DNA of 57,978 nucleotides from a virus, in the IMG/VR virus record IMGVR_UViG_3300005253_000632, positions 1 to 57,978 of that record; one strand, 5' to 3'. Below are positions 7,415 to 55,871 of the stretch, piece by piece. The number at the start of each line of letters is the position of its first letter. Position 1 is the first letter of the stretch. The notes beneath the pieces are model-generated. The model had not been told where the DNA came from and did not search any database. It was given only the letters and a program-made list of their open reading frames with translations. Made by a program: the position numbers and the translations under genes.

Positions 7415-8578
7415 TTGCGTCTGAACATCGGCGCCGGCGAAGTCAAGTTGTCGGGCTTTGTGCCCGTTGATCGTCGCGTCGGCAAGGAAGCCTACCCGCT
7501 GGAATATGACGATGATTCCGTTGACGAGATTCGTGCCAGCCACGTGCTGGAGCATTTCGCCAGCGGAATGGTCGGCGATGTTCTGGCGAACTGGGTCAGC
7601 AAGCTCAAGCCCGGCGGCGTTATCCGTATCGCCGTACCAGACTTTGAAGTCATTGCCGGCATGGTGGCCAACTCGCCACCGTCACAGCGCGGCCTGGCCT
7701 ATGCATACGCCTTCGGCGGCCAAACGGATGCAAACGATTTCCACCACGCGGCCTTTGACCCCGCCAGCCTCAAGACGCTCATGCGCCATTGCGGGCTGCG
7801 CAAGATCAAAGGATGGCAGTCTACCTTGCAGGACTGCGCCGCCCTGCCTGTGAGCCTGAACCTAGAAGGTGTCAAGCCGCACAAGCACAAGCTGCCCGCG
7901 ATTGTAGCAGCGATGTCTACGTCTCGGCTGGGATTTACCGAGAATATGTTCAGCGCTACGGGCGTGTTTCCACACAGGAACGTCGAGTTGGTCAAGCAGA
8001 CTGGGGCCTATTGGTCACAATGCCTGGATCGCGTGCTGACGCAGTTTCTCGATGCCGGCCATGATGGCTACATTGTAGTGCTCGACTACGATACGGTATT
8101 CAATGGCGACATATTCGACGAACTCTGTTACCTGATGGCTGACAATCCGCAGGCCGATGCTATCGCGCCGTGGCAAGTGAAACGCGAGAGCGACCATGCC
8201 TTAGTGTGGATGACGGATGACGATGGCAAGAAGCGAGATGAGATTACCTACGAAGAGCTTGATCGCGAACTAATGCCGGTCGATTCAGCGCACTTCGGCT
8301 TGACGCTGTTGCGCTCTAGGTGTTTTAAGTCGCTCAGGCGCCCGTGGTTCCTGGAAATCCCCGACCCTAATGGCGCCTGGGGCGATGGTCGCATTGACCC
8401 TGACATCTACTTTTGGAATAACTGGCGTGAATGCGGCAATTCGCTATTCATGGCCAACCACGTATCCATCGGCCATTGCCAACAGTTGGCAACTTGGCCG
8501 GACTGGAATTTGAAACCGATTCATCAGTACCTGCCGGACTATCAAAAGTCCGGCCCACCGAGGGGAGCGAGACTTTGA
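7415..8578 (+). CDS. Methyltransferase-glycosyltransferase fusion
   Basis: 387 residues. Residues 1-150 look like a SAM-dependent class I methyltransferase of the type-11 sort: LNIGAGE at the start, ASHVLEHF, then LKPGGVIRIAVPDFE. Residues 160-387 look like a GT-A-type glycosyltransferase: GYIVVLDYDTVF resembles the strand with the metal-binding DxD, followed by a helix and ADAIAP. It sits as an extra gene between head genes. Start is uncertain: TTG 7415 suits the domain, but a better ribosome site (GAAGGTG) precedes TTG 7326 in another frame, which would encode a 32-residue peptide. Likely acts on a glycan of virion or host. Confidence 0.65.
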   Translation: MRLNIGAGEVKLSGFVPVDRRVGKEAYPLEYDDDSVDEIRASHVLEHFASGMVGDVLANWVSKLKPGGVIRIAVPDFEVIAGMVANSPPSQRGLAYAYAFGGQTDANDFHHAAFDPASLKTLMRHCGLRKIKGWQSTLQDCAALPVSLNLEGVKPHKHKLPAIVAAMSTSRLGFTENMFSATGVFPHRNVELVKQTGAYWSQCLDRVLTQFLDAGHDGYIVVLDYDTVFNGDIFDELCYLMADNPQADAIAPWQVKRESDHALVWMTDDDGKKRDEITYEELDRELMPVDSAHFGLTLLRSRCFKSLRRPWFLEIPDPNGAWGDGRIDPDIYFWNNWRECGNSLFMANHVSIGHCQQLATWPDWNLKPIHQYLPDYQKSGPPRGARL

Positions 8579-10719: not shown

Positions 10720-11529
10720 ATGATAGACAAAACCGTCGCGGATTTCCCATCGTGGTATCATCGCATCAGGTTGCCTGATGGCACTGTCACGCCGGGTTGG
10801 TTCCCGCCGCAAAACATTCCAGACATCGTTGATTGGTACGAACTGCCAGAGGACTTCACCGGCAAGCGCGTGCTGGACGTAGGAGCTTTCGACGGCTTCT
10901 GGACGTTCTTGGCACTCGAGCGCGGCGCCGAACAGGTCGTGGCTATCGAGGACTGGTCGGATCGCATCGGTGAGTATGGCGACGAGCGGCACCGGCCGTG
11001 GGACACGTTTGATTTCTGCCGGGAGGCGCTACGATATGCAAGCCCCGAATGCCAAAGGCACACTATGTCGGTGTACGATGTAGCCACGTACAGCAGCCGG
11101 CAATACCCCGGCGAACCTGATTGGCTAGCATCGTTCGATACGGTCTTCCTGCTCGGCGTGCTGTACCACCTGCGGCATCCGCTGCTGGCCCTCGATGCTA
11201 TCGCCAAAGTCTGCAAGCCCGGCGCGGAGCTGTACGTCGAATCGGCGGTCTGCGATCAATACTCGCCATACAAGCCGGGCACCCCACCGTACGATGGTCG
11301 TTGCGTGATGGAATTCTATCCAACTGACCAGCTTGGCAAGCGCGCAACTAACTGGTGGGCACCGAACCTCAAGTGCTTGATGAACATGGTGGCGGCTGCG
11401 GGCTTTGGCCAGGTGCGATGCAACCTGCTGACCAAAGACCCGCAAGCGCCGGCTCACTGCCGGGCTATGGTTCGTGCGGTCTACACTGGCAAGCCAATGA
11501 AGGCGGGGCAAGTGCTATCCGTGCCGTAA
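10720..11529 (+). CDS. SAM methyltransferase, CmoB/DUF1698-like
   Basis: 269 residues. Class I methyltransferase: motif I is VLDVGAFDGFW (near residue 50), then an acidic loop AIEDW and the post-motif strand FDTVFLLGVLYHLRHP. The N-terminal FPSWYHRIRLPDGTVTPG resembles the CmoB/DUF1698 family, whose founding members modify tRNA wobble uridine. In an island with FkbM methyltransferase and sulfotransferase genes, action on a sugar or lipid is more likely, but the substrate cannot be read from sequence. Followed closely by the FkbM gene. Confidence 0.75.
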   Translation: MIDKTVADFPSWYHRIRLPDGTVTPGWFPPQNIPDIVDWYELPEDFTGKRVLDVGAFDGFWTFLALERGAEQVVAIEDWSDRIGEYGDERHRPWDTFDFCREALRYASPECQRHTMSVYDVATYSSRQYPGEPDWLASFDTVFLLGVLYHLRHPLLALDAIAKVCKPGAELYVESAVCDQYSPYKPGTPPYDGRCVMEFYPTDQLGKRATNWWAPNLKCLMNMVAAAGFGQVRCNLLTKDPQAPAHCRAMVRAVYTGKPMKAGQVLSVP

Positions 11530-16861: not shown

Positions 16862-16983
16862 TGGTGTTTTACCACATGTCGATTGATGAGATTGGCAATC
16901 TCAGCCTGCCTCAGCTTCAAATCCTGATGAACAAAATGGCCAAAGTCAATAAGACTTTGAACCCAGCACCCAAGGGGATGTAG
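16412..16983 (+). CDS. Tail assembly chaperone, -1 frameshift fusion
   Basis: Predicted 190-residue fusion equivalent to lambda gpGT. The zero frame reads GAA-AAC-CCT at nt 16814-16822; A-AAC-CCT (16816-16822) is a perfect X-XXY-YYZ heptamer. After slipping, reading resumes at TAC 16822 and gives 53 residues: YTAIDWGYVYGLLMVFYHMS, then IDEIGNLSLPQLQ and a Lys-rich end, typical of the T part of such fusions. The -1 frame opens only at 16789, so the slip window is narrow. It ends at TAG 16981-16983, overlapping the tape measure start. Confidence 0.8.
16816..16822 (+). other. Predicted -1 slippery heptamer
   Basis: AAACCCT, in phase A-AAC-CCT. Asn and Pro tRNAs can re-pair on AAA and CCC. It is the only canonical heptamer I see between 16789, where the second frame opens, and the zero-frame stop at 16861. 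Confidence 0.7.
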
Positions 16984-18625
16984 TGGCCCGCAAGCTCGGT
17001 GAAGCATTTGTAGCGATCAAAGCCGATATGTCCGACCTCAAGAAAGGGCTGGACGAGGCGGCTGCTGAGACAAAAAAGGCGGTCAGGACGATACTGCGCA
17101 GCCTGAACTTGGTGGAGCGGGCGCTTGGTGGCTTGATCAAGGTCGGGGCCGGGCTGTCCGTGGGGCTGACGCTCCCGATTGTGTTGGCTTCTCGCAGCTT
17201 TGTGCGTCTAGGCTCTGCCGCAAACGAGCTTGAAAACAGGTTCAGCATATCGTTCGGCAACATGACCGAGGAAATGAACGAATGGGCCAGTCGATTATCC
17301 GACGCCGTTGGCCGTAGCGCCATTGACACTAAGGATTTCGCCGCATCGTTCAATACGATGATTGGTCCGCTCAGGCTGGGCGCAGACGCAGCGTCAGCGA
17401 TGGCCAAAGAGCTTACCAAGCTAACATTCGACTTGGGCTCTATTGCAGATTTGACGCCCGAAGCGTCGTTCAGAAAACTGCAATCGGCCCTCGCGGGGCA
17501 GTTCCGGCCTCTTCAGAGATACGCCGAGTCAATGTCTGCGGCGGCAGTAAAGACGTTTGCGCTTGACAACGGCATTATAGCACTTGGCGAAACGATGAAC
17601 GAGACACAGAAACTTGTGGCTCGTTTTGGTCTTGTTACTGAAACGCTCAAGTTCGCGATGGGGGATGCAATCAGGACCGGCCAGGGCTGGCAGAACCAAT
17701 GGGAGCGGTTGCTAGGGCAGATCAAAGACATGTCCTCCGCGATGGGGCAAATCATGATACCAACGCTGCTGGCGTTGCTGCGCGTAATGAATGTAACCAT
17801 CATCCCCCTGGCGCTGTGGGTCGTCGAGTTCGTCAAGCTACATCCCCTGCTGGGAAACGTGGCCACCGCCGTCGCGCTTCTCGTCGCCGTGCTTGGGCCG
17901 CTTCTTATCATTTCCGCCGGACTGCTGCTAATCTACATTAAAATACGTTTTGCGTTTAAGGCGGCACAGATTACGTTGGGGCTCTTTGGTATCAAAGTCA
18001 AGGGCACCGCGCTCAGCGTGTTACTGTTCACCAAGGCTTTGGGGTTCGCAAGGATAGCAGGCGGGTGGCTCAGGGTAGAGTTCATTAGGATGAGAACTGC
18101 TTTGACTGCGCTTAGTGCCAGATTTAGGCTGGCATCAATCAGCTCGATTTCATTCGCGGCCATATGGACCGGGGCGGCGGGGGTCATCGCGGGTGCGGCT
18201 GCGCTTGTGGCTGGCGCGTTTCGCCTGATGTGGGCGGCGATCCTGGGTCCAGCGGGGTTAGCCATCATAGCCATTACGGCTTTGGCGTTCCTGATTGAGC
18301 ACTTGTTAGCCAAATCGGCAATGAAGGGCCTTGCCGAAGAAACGGACGCCCTCAACAAGGCGCTCAAGGCCTCAAGGGCGGAGCGGCGGGCGGCGCTGGG
18401 GACACGGGCGGCGGGGCCGGGTTTGGGCGCACCGTTAGTACGCCGGTTTTGGGCTTGCTTGCAGGCGGTGGCGAGGGCTTCTCTCGAATCTTCGCCGGAG
18501 CGGCCGGGGCAATAGGCATCAAACCGAAGGGTGACCAACTTGTCGCCGGGAAGCTCGATCGCACCAACGAACTCTTGGCCGAGATTGCGGGCAACGGCAT
18601 GTCTCCGGCATTGGTCCTCGCCTAA
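16983..18625 (+). CDS. Tape measure protein, frame-shifted near the C-terminus
   Basis: GTG start at 16983. The first 459 or so residues are in one frame: a coiled N-terminus (GEAFVAIKADMSDLKKGLDE), helices, and hydrophobic stretches near residues 270-310 and 380-430. That frame runs on to a stop at 18515 with Arg/Ala-rich, unconvincing residues. The natural end is in the -1 frame, open from 18299: a Gly-rich linker, then KPKGDQLVAGKLDRTNELLA and a stop at 18623-18625 that overlaps the next ATG. Full length would be near 547 residues, short for a tape measure. A lost base in a GC-rich run around 18361-18390 is the simplest cause; recoding is possible. Confidence 0.75.
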
Positions 18626-19572
18626 TGGCCATCACGGTTACAGAGCTCGTCCGCACCGGCCCTATCTCCTTGGACCAAAGCCAAGAGGTACGGGTCCGCG
18701 AGTTCAAGGTTGAAACTACCGATGCCGATGGGGACAACCTGTCGTTTGAGTCAGACGTCACATTCGCCGAGAACATTCCGCGAATCGGTGATCTGTGGTC
18801 CGCGCACGGCTACCAGGGCTCGGACGATCTCGAAGGCGAACTAACCCACGCCGAGCCGCGCGACATAGCCACAGAAGGCCAGCTCAGCGTCCACGGCGTT
18901 CGGGTAATCCGCTTGGCCGAATCAAGCTCGGGCGGCCTGAAAACGATTACATTCAAGGTAACGGTTCAATATGGAACCAAGAAGGTATTGTGGACCGCCC
19001 GTAAGCAAGCGGAAATCACGACCAAAACCGAGAAGATATTCTGGGATTTGGATGCAATTGAGGGGCCGCCGTTTCCGACCCCGCCGACCTACCTCGCGCA
19101 ATGTGCTACTTGGTCAAGCATCATTCAGCAGCCCTTGCCGCCGCAGTTTCCAAACTACGGCCATGAATCGGTAATCGAGAACGGCGAGGGAACCGACAAG
19201 CTCGCCCCGCAATTCGTGTTGAGCTTTCAGAAGCTCGTTTATGACCCCGACCTTGCCCAACAGCGAGAACTGTTTGACCTTGCAGCAACAACGAACGAAA
19301 CATCGGGCCAAGAAATCTTTATAGGCGAAAACCACTGGCTGTTCCTGGGCTCACAAGGCTCCGAAGTTAGGGATGACGTATTCGACTTGACCCTCAAGTT
19401 TGCCTATGACAAGTGGGATCACCGATACTTCACGTATACCACTGAGCAGGGTTCAACGTGGCCTGTGATTGCCGGAGCGGGGGCACAGGCTGTCCCGGCG
19501 TGCCGTAGCTACCGAATCTATCCTCGCACGGACTGGAATCCGATTGCAACAATACTTGGTATCACCCTGTAA
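18625..19572 (+). CDS. Putative distal tail protein
   Basis: 315 residues, overlapping the tape measure stop. Beta-rich: REFKVETTDADGDNLSFESD near the start, YGTKKVLWTARKQAEI in the middle, and a second half with repeated Trp/Tyr strands. Position just after the tape measure is that of distal tail/baseplate hub proteins. No specific family recognised, so the call rests on synteny. Confidence 0.6.
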   Translation: MAITVTELVRTGPISLDQSQEVRVREFKVETTDADGDNLSFESDVTFAENIPRIGDLWSAHGYQGSDDLEGELTHAEPRDIATEGQLSVHGVRVIRLAESSSGGLKTITFKVTVQYGTKKVLWTARKQAEITTKTEKIFWDLDAIEGPPFPTPPTYLAQCATWSSIIQQPLPPQFPNYGHESVIENGEGTDKLAPQFVLSFQKLVYDPDLAQQRELFDLAATTNETSGQEIFIGENHWLFLGSQGSEVRDDVFDLTLKFAYDKWDHRYFTYTTEQGSTWPVIAGAGAQAVPACRSYRIYPRTDWNPIATILGITL

Positions 19573-22338
19573 ATGCCTCAACGATTGCCACGTTTCGAGA
19601 AGGGTCAAGCCCTCTCCCACCGCGATCTCAACGCGCTGTCTGAAGCGATCACAGAGCAAGAGCGCGGCGACTTCCAACGCGCCAAGCGTCGCAGGGCTCC
19701 GGATTATGTGTGCAAGATTGTGGCTTTCGGGCCGGGGGGCGAGCCCGACTTCCGTGACTCGCGATACTGGGTCCGCCAAGTGCGGCTCCAGACTACGCTT
19801 CCGCCCGGCCCTGTCCCGTCCGGGATGCAAGAGATCGCATTCGGCACAAGCACGCCGATATGGGCCGAAGCGATCAACTTGTCTGAGGCGATTGGCGGCA
19901 CACATTCGTTGCCGCCCGGTACAATCGTCCGCATTTTCGAGGCCCGCGACTGGGCAGGCCAGACGCACTTCGTCTTCACGATCCAAGCCGGGGTAACGGG
20001 TGCCTGTTGCTTGCCACCGGGACACAAGGACGGACCCTGTGCCGACAACTGGCCAGAAAGCAAGTGTGATGATGAGGATGGCGAATGGGTTGGGCCGAAC
20101 ACCACGTGCGATCCCGATCCGTGCAAAGGCGCCTGCTGCCTCGGGGCAAATAACGCGACTTGTGTCCCGAATCAGACACAGGCTGATTGCGAGGTTGAAG
20201 GCGGGATCTTCGTTGGCGTCGGCACGGGCTGTGTACCCGACCCGTGTGAAACAACGCCCGGAGCGTGCTGTTTCGGCGAGAGTTGCGTACGCGACCAAAC
20301 CCAGGCCGAATGCCAGGGCGAGGGCGGCGTGTGGCAAGGGCCGGGCGTGCCCTGTGACCCCAATCCCTGCCTCGATCCTGATCCTGAACCCGGTGGGGCC
20401 TGTTGCGTTGGCGAGGTATGCCACCCGAACGAGACCGAAGAGAGCTGCTGCCTGCGCGGCGGCGAATGGCAAGGCCCGGCCGTACCGTGCTTTCCCAACC
20501 CGTGCGGCGAAACGGCCGGCTCTTGCTGTACCGGCCCGAACTTCAATACCTGCGTGCCCAATGTCACGCGGGGCAAGTGTTGCGTATTCAACGGCGGGGT
20601 CGGCCACTGGAATGGTCCGGGTTCAACCTGCGGACCGCCCGATCCATGCAATATACCGCCGACGGTGGGAGCGTGCTGCTGCGGTACCACATTCCCGCAG
20701 ACCTGTACGCCCAACCAAACTAGCGAACAATGCCTGGGCGAATCAGATTGCCAATGGTATCCGGGCGAGCCGTGTACGCCACCGCAGTGCCTCGGCGAGC
20801 CGCCCACGGTCGGCGCCTGCTGTGAGCCCGGTTCATTGCCGCAGGCTTGTCACGAAGACTGGACGCAGGTTCAATGTGCGGCAATCGACGGTAGATGGTT
20901 CCCCGGACAGCCCTGCACGCCGCCCGAATGCGAGGGCGAGCCGCCCGAGACGGGAGCTTGCTGCCCGTCGCCCGGCAACGTGCCTTGCATTATAAGTACA
21001 GAAGCGGATTGCGACGGCGGCTACTTAGGCGACGGCACCAATTGCGGGCCGCCCGATCCATGCATTGATCCCACTTCCGGTATCTGTTGCATCGGCCCTG
21101 CGCCACCGGGTGGCCAAGAAACTTGCGTCGAGGCTGATAACGAGGCTTCGTGTATCGGCCAAGACGGTACCTGGCATCCCGGCATTCCCAATTGTGGGCC
21201 GCCGAATCCATGTCCGTCCGCACCCGCGCTTGAGGCGTGTTGTATGACGGGCAGCGGGGCGCCCGGCCAACCGGAAGATTGCTTCGAGTTCACGCCGCAA
21301 GATTGCGAGTTGTTTGATGGTGTCCCGCAGGGACCCGGAAGTACATGCACGCCCAATCTATGTCCGATCCATCCCTTCCACGGCGCGTGTTGCTTCCCTG
21401 AGCCGGTGCCGCCACCGGGCGATCAGCAACAATGCGTAGATGACATTCACGAGCTCGAATGCATTGCCGGCGGTGGAGTGTGGCAGGGCGACAACACAGA
21501 CTGTTTCCCAAACCCGTGTCCATCGACACCGATCGGCGCATGTTGTTTCGGGCAAGAATGCGTCTCGAATCTGACTGAGGAGCAATGCCTGAAACAAGAT
21601 GGGAGATGGATAGGCAACCCGGGAGGCCTGCGAGATCCATGCGATCCGAATCCATGCCCCACAATAGAGCCTACTCCGGGTGCCTGTTGTGCGCCGCCGA
21701 GCATTACGCCGGCGCCGGACATTTGCATTGATAATCTGAGCCGCGAGGAATGCGAGCACGGCGAGCAGGGCACCTGGCAAGGGCCGGGCAGCGTTTGTGC
21801 CATGATCGACTGCAATGAGACCGGGGCCTGTTGCTTCCCATCCGGCTCCTGTATCGACGACCAGACGGAGAGCGACTGCATCGGAGAAGGCGGTCAATGG
21901 ATGGGGCCGGGCACGCTGTGTGCTGAGGTTGTATGCGGCGGAGAGGCCATTGACTGCTGCTTGCCGGATTGCACTTGTCAGATGGTCGGCGACGATGCTG
22001 CCTGCCTTGACCTCGGCGGTGAGCCGCATCCCATTGGCTTCTGTGCTGCCAATATGTGCTGTGTAGCCTGTTGCCGATTTATTCAGCAAGATTGTGTCGA
22101 TGCTCGAACATGTTTTGATTGCGAACAGGACGGATATGCGTGCCTCGGTGAAGGCACGAGCTGCGCAACCCATGAAAACGACTGCGAAATCTGCTGCTGC
22201 TTGGGTGAGACCAATGGCGAACCCTGCGGGCCGATCGTGTGTCCGCAAATAGATTGCGCCTGTACTGGCAGGACATCGCTCGACTGCAACAAGCTCGGAG
22301 GCGTCATCTCCGTCGTCAATTGCTGTATCCTGCCCTGA
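19573..22338 (+). CDS. Cys-rich repeat tail protein
   Basis: 921 residues, starting one base after the previous stop. Residues 1-140 are a head domain without cysteines except one (QRLPRFEKGQALSHRDLNAL, then VRQVRLQTTLPPG). From residue 141 on there are about 17 repeats of 36-48 residues: GACC, a variable loop with Cys, T-x3-C, GG-x-W-x-G-x-G, C, then PNPC. Each has about six cysteines that could pair as disulfides. Such repeats are known to me from secreted planctomycete proteins. Here it lies where tail fibre or receptor-binding genes belong, so it may be an extended, disulfide-stabilised tail appendage. Function is inferred. Confidence 0.75.
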   Translation: MPQRLPRFEKGQALSHRDLNALSEAITEQERGDFQRAKRRRAPDYVCKIVAFGPGGEPDFRDSRYWVRQVRLQTTLPPGPVPSGMQEIAFGTSTPIWAEAINLSEAIGGTHSLPPGTIVRIFEARDWAGQTHFVFTIQAGVTGACCLPPGHKDGPCADNWPESKCDDEDGEWVGPNTTCDPDPCKGACCLGANNATCVPNQTQADCEVEGGIFVGVGTGCVPDPCETTPGACCFGESCVRDQTQAECQGEGGVWQGPGVPCDPNPCLDPDPEPGGACCVGEVCHPNETEESCCLRGGEWQGPAVPCFPNPCGETAGSCCTGPNFNTCVPNVTRGKCCVFNGGVGHWNGPGSTCGPPDPCNIPPTVGACCCGTTFPQTCTPNQTSEQCLGESDCQWYPGEPCTPPQCLGEPPTVGACCEPGSLPQACHEDWTQVQCAAIDGRWFPGQPCTPPECEGEPPETGACCPSPGNVPCIISTEADCDGGYLGDGTNCGPPDPCIDPTSGICCIGPAPPGGQETCVEADNEASCIGQDGTWHPGIPNCGPPNPCPSAPALEACCMTGSGAPGQPEDCFEFTPQDCELFDGVPQGPGSTCTPNLCPIHPFHGACCFPEPVPPPGDQQQCVDDIHELECIAGGGVWQGDNTDCFPNPCPSTPIGACCFGQECVSNLTEEQCLKQDGRWIGNPGGLRDPCDPNPCPTIEPTPGACCAPPSITPAPDICIDNLSREECEHGEQGTWQGPGSVCAMIDCNETGACCFPSGSCIDDQTESDCIGEGGQWMGPGTLCAEVVCGGEAIDCCLPDCTCQMVGDDAACLDLGGEPHPIGFCAANMCCVACCRFIQQDCVDARTCFDCEQDGYACLGEGTSCATHENDCEICCCLGETNGEPCGPIVCPQIDCACTGRTSLDCNKLGGVISVVNCCILP

Positions 22339-22355
22339 CCCCAGAAAGGAATCCC

Positions 22356-22940
22356 ATGTTCACCCTCAAGCAAACCCAGTCATTTCTGCGCGCCGTGCTC
22401 AGCGGCCGGGACAAGACGCTGCAAGCAGAACGCGATGCCGTATGCGACGGCTGCGATCAGTACATCGAGCGGCCCGCGAAAAACATCTGGGGCAAGCTCA
22501 AGATGCAGGGCTTCTGCAAAGCCTGTGGCTGCGGAGCGCGGTCGATGGCCGACATGAAGGGCGGCAAGAACGCCTTCCGAGACATGAAGTGCCCAATGGC
22601 CCGATGGCCGGGCGACGCAGAGAGCATGGGCCTGACACTTAAAGAGGTCAACCTGCTGTTCGGAGCCAAGGACCGGCTCGAATACAACATGGCGTCGGTG
22701 CAGAATCTCATCGACAAACAAAAGCCAATGGACCCGGCGCTGCAGGCCATGATCTTCGGCCAGCCGCTGGCAGGAAAAGCCGCGGCGGGCGTGGCGGATG
22801 CAAGCAGGCCGCAGGCCTTGCCCGCCAAACAATGCCGCCGCCCTACTCCTTGCAAGAGCCGGTCGCCGAAGCCTAAGCCATTGCGCGATCCACAGGACGC
22901 GCTGGCCAACGCGCAACACGAAAACCTCGCAAGCGCCTAA
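22356..22940 (+). CDS. Hypothetical protein with zinc-finger-like cluster
   Basis: 194 residues from ATG 22356 behind AGAAAGGA. Residues 28-60 contain CDGCDQY and CKACGCGA separated by about 18 residues, a likely zinc site. A further Cys lies in DMKCPMARWPGD. The C-terminal 45 residues are Pro/Lys/Arg-rich. Such short Cys-cluster proteins occur in tail operons but I recognise no family. Confidence 0.6.
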   Translation: MFTLKQTQSFLRAVLSGRDKTLQAERDAVCDGCDQYIERPAKNIWGKLKMQGFCKACGCGARSMADMKGGKNAFRDMKCPMARWPGDAESMGLTLKEVNLLFGAKDRLEYNMASVQNLIDKQKPMDPALQAMIFGQPLAGKAAAGVADASRPQALPAKQCRRPTPCKSRSPKPKPLRDPQDALANAQHENLASA

Positions 22941-22970: not shown

Positions 22971-23873
22971 ATGGCCGATACATTTTGGGATAATAACGCC
23001 GGGGCTGGCGACAACACTTGGGATGGCGCAGTAAGTCAATGGAGCACGGGCGCCTTCCCGGTTACTGGCGACGATGCCCTGTTCACCGACGTGCGCTCGT
23101 CTGCAAATCTGAATGGCACCACGGTGATCGAGGCTACCTGGCCCGACAACATTTTCTTCAATCGCTACTCGGGCAATGTGGGATCGACCGGCACACACTT
23201 GATCCTGGACGATGCGGCCGGCAGCGAGACGCTTGACGAGCTGCGCATCGAGAACTGCACCGGCAAGTTTTTCATCGACTTCAATGAGGCGGCGGGTGAC
23301 AACGTAGTCACCGACACCTTTGTGAACGTGTCGGGGCAAGCGCCCGATCAAATCAACTTGGGCGGCGCGGCCGCTTTCACGAATGTCCACCTACTTCGAG
23401 GTAGAACCAACCTCGGGCAAACAGGTGTCATCACCGACCTGTGGGTAGCGCACAGCACGACACCTCGCGACGTTCATGCCGACATTTCGTCGGGCACCAC
23501 GGTCACAAATGTTCGCCAGGGCGGCGGGCGGGTTACGTGTGCGTCAGCCCAAGCCATCACGCTATGGATGCAGCAGGGCGGCACAACGCTGCTCACCGGC
23601 AGCAACACGATCACCGACTATTACGTGATGTCCGGCAACCTGCGAATCGACGGTAGCGGCACAGTGCTGGTCATCAGCAATCTTTACGTCAAATCCGGCA
23701 TGGTCGATCTGACCAGAACGGGGAACCTGCGCACGCTCACCAATATCTATGTCTGGCCGGGTGCGACGATTGACATGCGCGGCGTCGAGCCGTTCATCAC
23801 GAACACGAAGAGAGTTCAATACGGCACCGGCAAGTTTCTCGGCAATCTTCAGCCCACGCAGACCTTCGCATAA
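22971..23873 (+). CDS. Putative beta-helical tail fibre protein
   Basis: 300 residues. Begins ADTFWDNNAGAGDNTWDG, a start common in phage and bacterial surface proteins, and continues with regular short strands at about 20-residue spacing (ITDYYVMSGNLRI, VLVISNLYVKSG, LTNIYVWPGATI), as in a right-handed beta-helix. Probably part of the receptor-binding or glycan-cleaving apparatus; no catalytic residues can be named. Confidence 0.65.
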   Translation: MADTFWDNNAGAGDNTWDGAVSQWSTGAFPVTGDDALFTDVRSSANLNGTTVIEATWPDNIFFNRYSGNVGSTGTHLILDDAAGSETLDELRIENCTGKFFIDFNEAAGDNVVTDTFVNVSGQAPDQINLGGAAAFTNVHLLRGRTNLGQTGVITDLWVAHSTTPRDVHADISSGTTVTNVRQGGGRVTCASAQAITLWMQQGGTTLLTGSNTITDYYVMSGNLRIDGSGTVLVISNLYVKSGMVDLTRTGNLRTLTNIYVWPGATIDMRGVEPFITNTKRVQYGTGKFLGNLQPTQTFA

Positions 23874-24214: not shown

Positions 24215-26281
24215 ATGGCAAAACACATGCAGGAAGAACTGACACCTCTCAATCCGATCAAGATTCAGGGCGATACCATCGGCCTAGACGAGCGGATCGT
24301 CAACCTGCTCAAGTTCTTTAACGGGACATTCTTGGAGTTCTTTGATGCGCTGGTGACCAGCGACGGCGCCACGGTCACTATGTCGCTTGAGAAATCGGGC
24401 GGCGGCGATCTGACCACCGTATTCAGCGACAGGCACCGCAACTTTGATTGCACGCCCGCCGCCACGATTGCGCTGACTCCGGGAACCGATGAAGCCCCGC
24501 AACTCAATTATGTATACATCCTGCAATCTGCGCCGGCTGTGCTGGTCAAGAGCATAAGCGATTGGCCGTCCGCAGAGCACATTCGGGTGGGTATATTCTT
24601 TGTTCCCACGGCAGGGCTGGTCAACACGGGCGCGGCGGGGAACAATTTCCTCCTAATCAACCAAAACATAAATGAGGAGGCCGCGACTGCTGACGGGCAA
24701 GGGCACTTGACACACATCATGGACAGGTTGCGACACGGCGGTGGCATGGGAGGGCTATGGCACACCGGGTGTTTGGGCACAGCCACACAAGACGGTAATG
24801 ATCTTTGGGTTGATATTGCGGCCGGAACCGTAGCACAAGTTCATCATCACGATTTCCCGGCGCTTGATTCTGACACTGCGGGTGCAGGCGATCCGATTGT
24901 CGTAGTCAATGACCCCGACGCAGCCTACGCCATCATCAATAGCCTGAACGCGATTACGAAGCTGTCTACTGGCGTCGCAATCGGGAACAACAAATTTGTG
25001 AAGTTTGTGCTCTCTGCTGTCGCGAACAAGACGGGTGCGGTTAGTCCGATGCTCCTGAAGCTGCCGGGCGGCCTATACAACACGGCCGCCGACGCAGCCA
25101 CAGACGTTGAGGGTTATGCCGACTTCTCAATTCCTGATGAATTTCTCATACAGTCGTCCACGGGTTTTCTCATTGCGTCATTCGTATGCAAGCACACGGC
25201 CACTGGGATGGAGCTTCAGTCTACGGTAGACCTGCGCGGCCAGACCCCTACATCACTGAGTATCGGCGGCTCCATTGCCGGCGGCGGCAACGTGACGGCT
25301 GCGGCGAACCTGACTGATAACGCCCTCATTCGCGGCGACGGCGGGGCCAAGGGCATCCAGGACAGCGGCTGGCTGCTGGACGATAGCGATAATATGCTGA
25401 TCCCGGCTGGAGGCAGTATTGCTTTTACGGACGTCAGTACCTCCATTTCTGCGGTCACCGGGAATCTCAATTCGTTGGTCGCCGGGGGAAATAGTTTCAT
25501 TTGGGGAATCGGGTTCACTGACGAGTTAATACTGTTTGAGAATCGCCTGGAGTTCAAGCAGGTTTTCCAGGACGTTGGATTTGGATGGGCAACCGCTTCT
25601 GAGCTTGACGTAGAAATCGACGGCGTACCCCAAGTCACCTTCACCGATGGCACGTTCGAGCCGGTGACGACGAACGATATCGACATCGGCTCGCTAACGG
25701 TGCTGTTCAAAGATGGGCACCTCGCTGGCTCGCTGTTTTTCCGCGATGCCGCCATTCACATTTCTTCGGACAACGACGGCGATCTTGACCTTGAGGCTGA
25801 CGTAAGCATCGACTTCGAGATCGGCGGCACGGAGGAAATGACGCTGACCAGTGCCGGCCTTGACGTGACGAACCTTTGTAAAGCAGAGACCTTTGAAAGC
25901 GACGTGGCGGGTGGCACGGCTCCGATCGTGGTCGCAAGCACCACAGTGGTTCCGAACCTCAATGTTGACCAAGTGGACGGCAAGGATTCGACGGACCTGG
26001 TGCTCGTTGACGGCTCGCAGCCGCTGACCGCCGATTGGGATGCGGGGGCGTTCAGCATTCGGGCGGGGGGCTTCCGCGTAGACGGCGATGGGGGCACCGA
26101 GGCGGGCACGATAACTTTCACAAATGTTGAAGCTAATGCAGGAACGGGGGGAGTTCCTACGTTTGCGGCGGGCGTACAAATAGCCACGGGCAAAGAGGCT
26201 TCGCCTGCCGGAGCGGCCCCAACAGATTGGCTGAAAATTCGCACGCCGGCCGGCGCGAAGTGGTTGTTACTGTGGACCTAA
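24215..26281 (+). CDS. Large tail fibre protein
   Basis: 688 residues. N-terminal 160 residues resemble a fibre base (IGLDERIVNLLKFFNG). A His-rich segment HHHDF at about 210 follows. The second half is repetitive and Asp/Gly/Thr-rich (NLTDNALIRGDGGAKGIQDS, DGDLDLEADVSIDFEIGG), as in trimeric fibres read out after a phage collar. The end LKIRTPAGAKWLLLWT is typical of a fibre tip strand. Likely receptor binding. Confidence 0.7.
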   Translation: MAKHMQEELTPLNPIKIQGDTIGLDERIVNLLKFFNGTFLEFFDALVTSDGATVTMSLEKSGGGDLTTVFSDRHRNFDCTPAATIALTPGTDEAPQLNYVYILQSAPAVLVKSISDWPSAEHIRVGIFFVPTAGLVNTGAAGNNFLLINQNINEEAATADGQGHLTHIMDRLRHGGGMGGLWHTGCLGTATQDGNDLWVDIAAGTVAQVHHHDFPALDSDTAGAGDPIVVVNDPDAAYAIINSLNAITKLSTGVAIGNNKFVKFVLSAVANKTGAVSPMLLKLPGGLYNTAADAATDVEGYADFSIPDEFLIQSSTGFLIASFVCKHTATGMELQSTVDLRGQTPTSLSIGGSIAGGGNVTAAANLTDNALIRGDGGAKGIQDSGWLLDDSDNMLIPAGGSIAFTDVSTSISAVTGNLNSLVAGGNSFIWGIGFTDELILFENRLEFKQVFQDVGFGWATASELDVEIDGVPQVTFTDGTFEPVTTNDIDIGSLTVLFKDGHLAGSLFFRDAAIHISSDNDGDLDLEADVSIDFEIGGTEEMTLTSAGLDVTNLCKAETFESDVAGGTAPIVVASTTVVPNLNVDQVDGKDSTDLVLVDGSQPLTADWDAGAFSIRAGGFRVDGDGGTEAGTITFTNVEANAGTGGVPTFAAGVQIATGKEASPAGAAPTDWLKIRTPAGAKWLLLWT

Positions 26282-26505
26282 AGAGAACCGGCAAGTGCTG
26301 CCACAACGGCGCCTGCTGCAAATGGGAAACGGCCAAGGGGCTGGAGATGTTCAAAGACAGGCGAGACGAAAAACGCGAGTGGTGCCCGCACTATGACCCG
26401 ACAGTGAAGGTGAACCATTGTACGATTTACGATGACCGACCCGAAGGATGCCGAATGTTCCCCCGCGTGGCCGCGCACCTACTCCCCGGCTGCGGATTCC
26501 ACTGA
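26272..26505 (+). CDS. YkgJ-like metal-binding protein
   Basis: 77 residues from GTG 26272, overlapping the fibre gene by 10 bp. Cysteines CCHNGACC near the start, WCPHYD, and then CTIYDDRPEGCRMFP match the layout of the YkgJ/CxxCxxCC family, whose members are thought to chelate Zn or Fe-S, with the Cys-x-Y-x2-R-P-x2-C-R segment conserved. Shorter than chromosomal relatives. Role in the phage unknown. Confidence 0.6.
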   Translation: MDLKRTGKCCHNGACCKWETAKGLEMFKDRRDEKREWCPHYDPTVKVNHCTIYDDRPEGCRMFPRVAAHLLPGCGFH

Positions 26506-51677: not shown

Positions 51678-52673
51678 ATGTCCACCCCACTGAGTCTACA
51701 GCATATTCTCGTGACCGGCGGCAGCGGATTTCTAGGCACGGCTGTGCTGCAAAAGCTCGATGCCGCAGGGTGTCGCCATGTGTGGTCGCCGAGTAGCGGC
51801 ACGCTGAACCTGCTTGATGAGGACCTCTGTAGGAAGTGTGTTGTTGAGTTCGCGCCCGATACCATAATCCACTGCGCGGCGATATGCGGCGGCATTGGAG
51901 CCAACCAAGGCACAGAGGCCGAGTTTTGTCAGGGCAACCTGCGAATGGGGCTGAACGTGCTGCATGGTGCCCATGTGGCTCATGCCCGGCTCATCAACAT
52001 CGGCTCCGTATGCGCCTATCCCCTTGATTGCCCACAGCCCATGCGCGAAGACGACCTGTGGGCAGGCTGGCCCGAGCCTACGAATGCCTATTACGGCATT
52101 GCCAAGCGCACTATCATGGCGGCGGCCGACGCCTACAACAAACAGTACGGCCTCGAGCGCTTGAATCTGGTGCTTACGAACCTCTACGGGCCGGGCGACA
52201 ACTTCGACCTGAAGACCTCCCACGTTATCCCGGCCCTGATGCGCAGGATGGCAGAATGCGGGCCGTGCGATACGGTTGACTTGTGGGGCGACGGCACGCC
52301 GACCCGCGATTTGTTGTATGTCCAGGATGCCGCCGAAGCCATCGTTGTGGCTGCCGTCTCGCCAAGCGCGGGCGGCACGATCAACATTGCGTCAGGGCAG
52401 AGCCATAGCATTGCCAAGCTCGCTCGCATGGTCGCTGATGTTGTTGGGTTTCACGGTCAAGTAGAATGGGACAGGGCAAAGCCGAACGGTCAGCCAGCGC
52501 GGCTATTGGATATTTCGCGTGGCGCACGCTCGCTCGGCTGGAAAGCAACGACTAGCATCCAAGACGGCCTTCGGCGAACGTATGAATGGTACAAGGCGTC
52601 AACCGAGCTCTGTGGCATGAGGCTTTGTGGTACACCAGTAGAAGAGGGCGGCAAACAGCGCCATGGCCGTTAA
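51678..52673 (+). CDS. fcl: GDP-L-fucose synthase-like epimerase/reductase
   Basis: 331 residues. NAD(P) loop VTGGSGFLGTAVL; SDR-type GSVCAYP with the Ser and the Cys position of GDP-L-fucose synthase; YYGIAK with Tyr-x3-Lys; TNLYGPGDNF and SHVIPALMRRM with the histidine of the family. It converts GDP-4-keto-6-deoxymannose to GDP-L-fucose; the enzyme for the previous step is encoded at 54891. C-terminus has 15 extra residues over the usual end, overlapping a leftward gene. Confidence 0.85.
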   Translation: MSTPLSLQHILVTGGSGFLGTAVLQKLDAAGCRHVWSPSSGTLNLLDEDLCRKCVVEFAPDTIIHCAAICGGIGANQGTEAEFCQGNLRMGLNVLHGAHVAHARLINIGSVCAYPLDCPQPMREDDLWAGWPEPTNAYYGIAKRTIMAAADAYNKQYGLERLNLVLTNLYGPGDNFDLKTSHVIPALMRRMAECGPCDTVDLWGDGTPTRDLLYVQDAAEAIVVAAVSPSAGGTINIASGQSHSIAKLARMVADVVGFHGQVEWDRAKPNGQPARLLDISRGARSLGWKATTSIQDGLRRTYEWYKASTELCGMRLCGTPVEEGGKQRHGR

Positions 52674-54651: not shown

Positions 54652-54894
54652 ATGACCACCGCAAGCCTCGATAGCAGCACAATCCTGGAATGCCGCAAGC
54701 AGTTTTGCAACTACTGCCGAGAGGGCCACGCCCTTATCCCCGGTACATACCGGCATCGGTTCAGAGCGAGAGTCTTCGGCATTCCGCAAACGGTTGAGCC
54801 TGGGTGCCATGCATGGCAGTTGGTGAAGCTGGAACATCCCAAGAGTCGACGTGACCCGCCGCCGAACTTTCAAACCGTCATTGGGCACGCATGA
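54652..54894 (+). CDS. Small Cys/His protein
   Basis: 80 residues from ATG 54652. [14 protein letters not shown] suggests a zinc site; the end is Pro/Arg-rich. Overlaps gmd by 4 bp. Confidence 0.5.
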
Positions 54895-55871
54895 CCACCG
54901 CCCTCATCACAGGCATCACCGGCCAGGACGGCTCATATCTTGCCGAGCTGTTGCTCGGCAAAGGCTACACGGTCCACGGCATCATCCGCCGCAGTAGCTC
55001 GATTAACACCGAACGAATTGACCACCTGTACGAAGAGCCGCATTCCGAGAGCCGAAACCTCTACCTGCACTATGGTGACCTGGCCGACGCTGCAAATATC
55101 GCCCGGCTCGTGGCCGAAATCCGGCCCGATGAAGTGTACAACCTAGGCGCGCAGTCACACGTCCGCGTCTCGTTTGACATCCCCGAATATACCGCCGACG
55201 TAATAGCATTGGGCACCCTACGGCTGCTCGAAGCTGTCAAGACGCACGCTCCAGCGGCACGGTTCTATCAGGCATCAAGCAGCGAGCTATTCGGTGCATC
55301 ACCCCCGCCGCAGAATGAACAAACGCCGTTCCACCCGCGAAGTCCGTATGCGATTGCCAAGCTGCACGCGTACTGGACAACGATCAACTACCGCGAAGCA
55401 TATGGGATGCACTGCTCGAACGGCATCCTGTTTAACCATGAATCGCCCCGGCGTGGCGAGACGTTCGTCACACAGAAGATCGCCAAGGCCGCAGTACGCA
55501 TATCCCGCGGCCTACAGCAACATGTCTATCTCGGCAACCTTGACGCGCAACGAGATTGGGGCTATGCTGGCGATTACGTTGAAGCCATGTGGCTCATGTG
55601 CCAGCAGGACGAGCCAGACGATTACGTGATCGCCACGGGCGAGATGCACAGCGTACGAGAGTTTGCCGAGCGAGCCTTCGGCTGTGTTGGCCTGGATTGG
55701 CGAAAGCATGTGCGGATAGATGAGCGATACATGCGGCCCGCCGAAGTCGATGCGCTGTGTGGCGACGCCAGCAAGGCGCGCGAGCGGCTGGGCTGGAAGC
55801 CCCACGTTGCTTTTGACGAACTGGTCAAGATGATGGTGGGCGCAGGAAGCAGATGGGATGGTGCGACATGA
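54891..55871 (+). CDS. gmd: GDP-mannose 4,6-dehydratase
   Basis: 326 residues. [18 protein letters not shown] is the NADP loop of [49 protein letters not shown] and [14 protein letters not shown] follow in family order. Ser, Glu, Tyr and Lys of the catalytic set are in place. Makes GDP-4-keto-6-deoxymannose, the substrate of the epimerase/reductase at 51678. Slightly shorter than usual (about 345-370). Very confident. Confidence 0.93.

Follow-up and report, generated by a model that had tools for sequence, protein, structure and literature searches.

The window, by which we mean the whole 57,978-nucleotide stretch of DNA analyzed (IMG/VR record IMGVR_UViG_3300005253_000632), carries in its tail operon a gene for a 921-residue protein with 115 cysteines, much of which is a tandem array of a repeat that we call the GACC repeat. 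The explanation that we favor, and consider probable as a whole, is that the protein is a tail-associated virion protein, a modular appendage or adhesin made of disulfide beads that come from a planctomycete-type pool of repeats and are oxidized after lysis. The gene (19573..22338) starts with an ATG at 19573 and is open to the stop codon at 22338; it, its parts and its operon neighbors described below are all on the plus strand. The first 142 residues form an N-terminal head (19573..19998). Residues 143–792 are 14 regular GACC repeats of 41–51 residues each: repeat 1 (19999..20127), repeat 2 (20128..20259), repeat 3 (20260..20394) and repeat 4 (20395..20517), these last two being the pair modeled together, repeat 5 (20518..20667), repeat 6 (20668..20811), repeat 7 (20812..20952), repeat 8 (20953..21078), repeat 9 (21079..21231), repeat 10 (21232..21381, an EACC version), repeat 11 (21382..21534), repeat 12 (21535..21678), repeat 13 (21679..21822) and repeat 14 (21823..21948). 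By direct reading of the sequence, residues 793–921 (21949..22335) comprise a degenerate fifteenth copy, at residues 793–836, and an irregular Cys-rich tail from there to the end. The original prediction had about 17 repeats of 36–48 residues, with about six Cys each, behind a head of about 140 residues; it was right about the head and the cysteines and slightly off in the number and length of the repeats.

Each repeat has six invariant Cys in the arrangement CC-x(4-13)-C-x(7-8)-C-x(~13)-C-x(4-5)-C. G1 and G23 hardly vary, and no His is conserved. The protein fits the family pattern GACC-x-C-x8-C-xxxGGxW/F/YxGxGTxC-x4-C, and the tandem array that goes with that pattern is present in 14 copies. 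That the array is real, as had been claimed, is borne out by a profile of the 14 repeats, which gives no match of 15 bits or more in 500 composition-preserving shuffles of residues 143–792. With the same profile, host loci give 332 domains and viral loci 158; these loci are a selected sample, fetched by DNA patterns designed on the repeat, and the profile scoring is a separate step. Mean amino acid identity among the repeats of the window is 43%, and Tandem Repeats Finder detects no DNA-level array in the gene. The repeats are thus conserved at the protein level, as they would be in a real gene, and they appear to be old and maintained at that level. The codon usage of the gene follows the phage's own preferences. 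With diverged repeats and phage-like codons, nothing indicates that the repeat was captured recently, and a recent capture was rejected for want of a codon or DNA-repeat signature.

No match to the protein appears in Pfam, PHROG or NCBIfam, and no convincing one in PDB. Neither the whole protein nor its head matches a known tail fiber or tailspike family in PHROG or Pfam, and a search of NCBIfam found no GC-type dockerin (NF041540) at its C-terminus. We found no published description of the repeat in the literature searched. The GACC repeat is real and has been without a name, and without a model in Pfam, PHROG or NCBIfam, until now.

In keeping with the tail protein that had been predicted, the gene lies in the tail operon, downstream of the tape measure and before a beta-solenoid-like gene. 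The tape-measure-like protein (16983..18515) matches PHROG tape-measure families with E down to 5.7e-14. It is followed by a 315-residue protein (18625..19572), which has no PHROG or Pfam match and is not assigned to a family, and whose TAA directly touches the ATG of the GACC gene. Directly 3' of the GACC gene comes a zinc-ribbon-like protein (22353..22940; 28% over 68 residues, E 1e-6, to positions 1921–2520 of a contig that we call L219). The next protein (22971..23873; phmmer 1.7e-14 against L163; 26%; z 8.4 against L211) is a putative tail protein with what may be a beta-solenoid-like fold, and it is conserved both in a related virus and in L211, a prophage-like locus of the Phycisphaerae. 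L219, a related viral contig (IMGVR_UViG_3300022539_000168), shows the gene order tape measure (PHROG E 8e-42), 319-residue protein, 314-residue protein, GACC protein (671 residues, 80 Cys), zinc-ribbon-like protein, beta-solenoid-like protein. This synteny is common to the window and L219; it is likewise found in L211, but without the GACC array. The slot in L211 (6616–7302), next to a clear relative of the beta-solenoid-like protein, holds a 229-residue protein that resembles the window head, the local alignment between the two beating 99.4% of 1000 shuffles (z 3.5). Most simply, the window protein would be the fusion of a tail-slot protein with a GACC array, although the head match is no more than suggestive. 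The window head gave no significant result when compared directly with the 314-residue protein of L219 or searched against IMG/VR, phage records, PHROG and Pfam, and BLAST of the 315-residue protein against its L219 or L003 counterparts was also not significant. A putative family of tail-slot heads starting with LPxFxxGqxLSxxxMNxL takes in L219 (4529–5473), L211 (6616–7302) and the window (19573–19998); PHROG and Pfam hold no model of it. Also near the tail genes, positions 26227–26505 of the window encode a small protein that matches the putative metal-chelating domain CxxCxxCC (PF03692) weakly and below its cut-off.

The terminase, portal and capsid encoded in the genome are of the HK97 type. 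The genome also encodes a connector resembling gp6, a tail completion protein resembling gp17, the tape measure, an integrase and the recombination proteins YqaJ and RecT; a tail-tube-like protein matches below the family cut-off. Judging by this gene content, the phage is a temperate HK97-type virus of the siphophage type. In a single search, with identities that are moderate, the portal is 52% identical over residues 12–397 to the portal of a Phycisphaerae contig (G827), and the best portals elsewhere are at 45% in phage records and 39% among 299 Pseudomonadota genomes. That Phycisphaerae contig also encodes an exported GACC protein. A relative of the capsid, at 38%, is on another Phycisphaerae contig (G521), which encodes a portal and a terminase as well. 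Since these structural genes are nearest to Phycisphaerae contigs, at moderate identities, the phage most likely infects a Phycisphaerae planctomycete, an assignment that is supported, not proven.

The head-to-tail morphogenesis region also contains cargo genes, which are unusual inside a phage structural block. These are a sulfotransferase (PF00685; 12125–12823), an FkbM methyltransferase (PF05050; 11355–12188), a Methyltransf_9-type gene (10720–11529) and a weak methyltransferase match (7415–8578). At the right end of the window, an NAD-dependent epimerase and a GDP-mannose 4,6-dehydratase (51678–52673 and 54891–55871) suggest that the phage may encode nucleotide-sugar synthesis.

The GACC repeat is strongly enriched in the phylum Planctomycetota, class Phycisphaerae. 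The original prediction had called the repeat planctomycete-like, and a profile search of bacterial genomes agrees: at E 0.001, the profile of the window repeats matches 23 of 120 Phycisphaerae genomes and none of 119 Actinomycetota genomes. None of 200 Pseudomonadota genomes matches at the stricter E of 1e-6. Single Phycisphaerae genomes give up to 59 matches, some of them having more than 50 copies, and host reading frames hold up to 14–15 repeats each. A Planctomycetota-wide scan at E 1e-6, a cut-off that is too strict, matches 5 of 294 genomes. Within the Planctomycetota, the repeat is a feature of some members and is not universal. A second view comes from searching one genome per GTDB species with a DNA pattern of the exact Cys spacing, which returned at least 120 stretches. 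Profile-confirmed repeats are present in 94 of the 120 listed, and among the matches listed, 87 of these have Phycisphaer- or Planctomycet- in their titles. Seven others come from metagenome bins, whose titles are Myxococcales, Gemmatimonadetes, Bacteroidetes, Proteobacteria, Eisenbacteria (two) and 'bacterium', and their arrays may represent real transfer or the mis-binning of planctomycete contigs. Loci L022, L035, L047, L103 and L105 are GACC arrays in bins of this kind, with titles naming Myxococcales, Bacteroidetes, Proteobacteria or Eisenbacteria. Chance matches to the pattern (L008, L137 and Streptomyces loci) failed the profile and were discarded. The first Cys-spacing pattern misses the window itself, so the locus counts are lower bounds.

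The host proteins share the six-Cys plan of the window protein, having been found with a profile built solely from the window repeats, and many of them appear to be secreted, as had been supposed. Among host GACC reading frames whose 5' side is complete, simple rules detect a signal-peptide-like N-terminus in 33 of 86, versus none of 50 viral ones (Fisher p 1.7e-8). Similar rules detect a dockerin-like loop in 31 of 85 host proteins versus none of 65 viral ones, and three host examples match NF041540, one of them above the cut-off. The exported Phycisphaerae proteins therefore often have a signal-peptide-like N-terminus and a dockerin-like C-terminus, whereas the phage protein has neither and has its own head instead. 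Its N-terminus, MPQRLPRFEKGQALSHRD, lacks a hydrophobic stretch, and no signal peptide is apparent.

The window is not alone among viruses. Three pattern scans recovered at least 53 IMG/VR contigs with profile-confirmed GACC repeats. The viral GACC genes adjoin T4-like baseplate genes or lie in siphophage tail operons, and they recur next to baseplate, tape measure and collagen-like fiber genes. The proteins reach 2082 residues or 284 Cys, and the giant genes are often two or three in tandem, with collagen-like or Thr/Ser-run segments. In L140, giant GACC genes adjoin gp6- and gp25-like baseplate wedge genes, with look-alikes in L133 and L145. In L182, GACC genes are near head-closure and terminase genes, the terminase being about 60% identical to pelagiphage/cyanophage proteins. 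Like L165, L225, L140, L145 and L156, L182 is a T4-like contig whose giant GACC genes are in tandem and adjoin baseplate or neck genes; many of the proteins of these contigs begin with collagen-like GPTG segments. In L002, L003, L007, L184 and L190, the repeats are mixed with other Cys-rich modules and with long Thr or Ser runs that look like linkers or glycosylation targets. Viral arrays such as those of L219, L165, L145 and L003 are like that of the window in placing the same repeat in tail or baseplate neighborhoods, and L219 shares its gene order as well. They differ from it in their heads, which are collagen-like GPTG segments, Thr/Ser runs or, in L219, a separate head gene, and some of the proteins are far larger than the window protein and encoded in tandem genes. 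Isolated-phage records gave no tblastn match to GACC proteins, a negative weakened by the low-complexity filter, and a direct protein search of IMG/VR and phage records with the window protein and its head returned nothing, at a sensitivity limited by such filters. The suggestion that the phage had captured a host surface scaffold thus stands as to the host-like character of the repeat; a single capture does not agree with at least 53 viral contigs, T4-like phages included, that carry it. Viruses seem to make wide use of a host building block on their tails.

We propose that the GACC protein would be part of the virion and associated with the tail, where the head (residues 1–142) would serve to dock it. 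The 14 beads, with three disulfides each and joined by Pro-rich linkers, would form a projecting, protease-resistant string. The repeat would have been drawn from the pool common to exported planctomycete proteins, and the array might engage the surface partners of the host's own GACC proteins, or like repeats, and hold the virion on the cell ahead of irreversible binding. To our knowledge, no binding partner has been described for the host GACC proteins, and so we infer the adhesion step. Adhesion through shared partners would be reasonable given that planctomycete walls contain other Cys-rich proteins (PMC8567305). These are the YTV-domain proteins of Planctomycetales walls, Cys-rich planctomycete envelope proteins that are not reported in early-diverging planctomycetes (PMC8567305). 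Both their domain and their order differ from those of the GACC proteins.

An array without host mimicry is unlikely, in our estimation. It would be a spacer or shield of the virion, a rod of protease-resistant modules that holds other receptor-binding parts in position or protects the particles, and its likeness to the host repeats would be due to shared ancestry alone. The fusion of many viral versions to collagen-like or Thr/Ser-run stalks suits a rod of this kind, the giant forms look architectural, and the disulfides of phage Milano serve particle stability (PMC10811340). However, the copies in the window vary strongly, beyond the needs of a plain spacer, and the recurrence of a repeat in which a single host clade is enriched suggests that its role is directed at the host.

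We also doubt, rather strongly, that the repeat flowed from phage to host, with phages originating or spreading it and planctomycetes recruiting it into secreted proteins. The number of viral contigs, the distance between the phage types that they represent and the Cys content of their proteins would fit that direction, and the viral copies are as diverse as the host copies. Against it is the abundance of matches within single host genomes, across much of a class. The repeats of the window also match host copies slightly more often than viral ones, host copies filling 114 of their 140 top-ten places versus 68% expected, the places not being independent.

Returning to the virion adhesin that we favor, its location needs to be weighed against that of lysogenic-conversion cargo, a host surface or secreted protein expressed from the prophage and found outside the virion. 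The phage has an integrase and the host GACC proteins are exported, but we think such cargo very improbable, as neither the window protein nor any of the 50 viral reading frames has a signal-like N-terminus, the start codon touches the stop of the preceding tail-operon gene, and the T4-like relatives carry their GACC genes beside baseplate genes.

A model of repeats 3 and 4 together, from a 79-row alignment, has a mean pLDDT of 92.9 and a pTM of 0.52. In this confident model, each repeat is predicted to be beta-beta-alpha-beta, and the loose orientation between the repeats would fit beads on Pro-rich linkers. Fold searches found no PDB or viral match to the model. The repeat-pair profile gives weak or borderline matches, at E 0.004–0.1, to the extracellular domain of inactive rhomboids (PDB 9xy4, 9q7y, 8snl, 9o58). 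This metazoan domain has two stretches with GACC-like Cys spacing, and the spacing CC-x6-C-x7-C-x13-C-x4-C in iRhom1/2 (9xy4, 8snl) agrees with the plan of the GACC repeat. Because iRhom is a metazoan membrane protein, the score is borderline and there is no fold match, we treat this as a lead and not as a claim of homology.

The six Cys of each repeat probably pair as three disulfides. We think it very improbable that they instead remain reduced, with zinc or some other metal bound, as synthesis in the reducing cytoplasm and the adjoining zinc-ribbon-like protein might suggest, since the same repeat is in host proteins that are exported and have signal-peptide-like N-termini, and three disulfides suit a repeat that has six invariant Cys but no conserved His. 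On the reading that we prefer, the adhesin would be synthesized reduced in the cytoplasm, with no signal peptide, and oxidized at or after lysis. No disulfide-forming enzyme was recognized among the window genes scanned. The original prediction thought so many disulfides odd in a virion protein made in the cytoplasm. That was overstated, since there is a solved precedent in the tail of Agrobacterium phage Milano, in which sheath and baseplate are cross-linked by disulfides (PMC10811340). Like the protein proposed here, it is a disulfide-rich phage tail made in the bacterial cytoplasm. It differs in that its disulfides join conventional sheath, baseplate and receptor-binding subunits, whereas those of the window protein are proposed to lie within an array of host-type repeats (PMC10811340).

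A wider generalization is that several unrelated phage types have time and again built tail adhesins from a planctomycete export repeat and that their virions attach through contacts of like with like or with shared partners. We offer it tentatively, as a possibility that has the odds against it. If it is true, it would mean adhesion by surface mimicry and a pool of repeats that a bacterial class and its viruses share and still exchange. Naming the GACC repeat would explain very large Cys-rich proteins of environmental phages, and the repeat might flag probable planctomycete viruses, for which a host is seldom known. Two subjects become testable as well: the maturation of heavily disulfide-bonded virion parts without export, and the reuse by phages of host surface modules for attachment.
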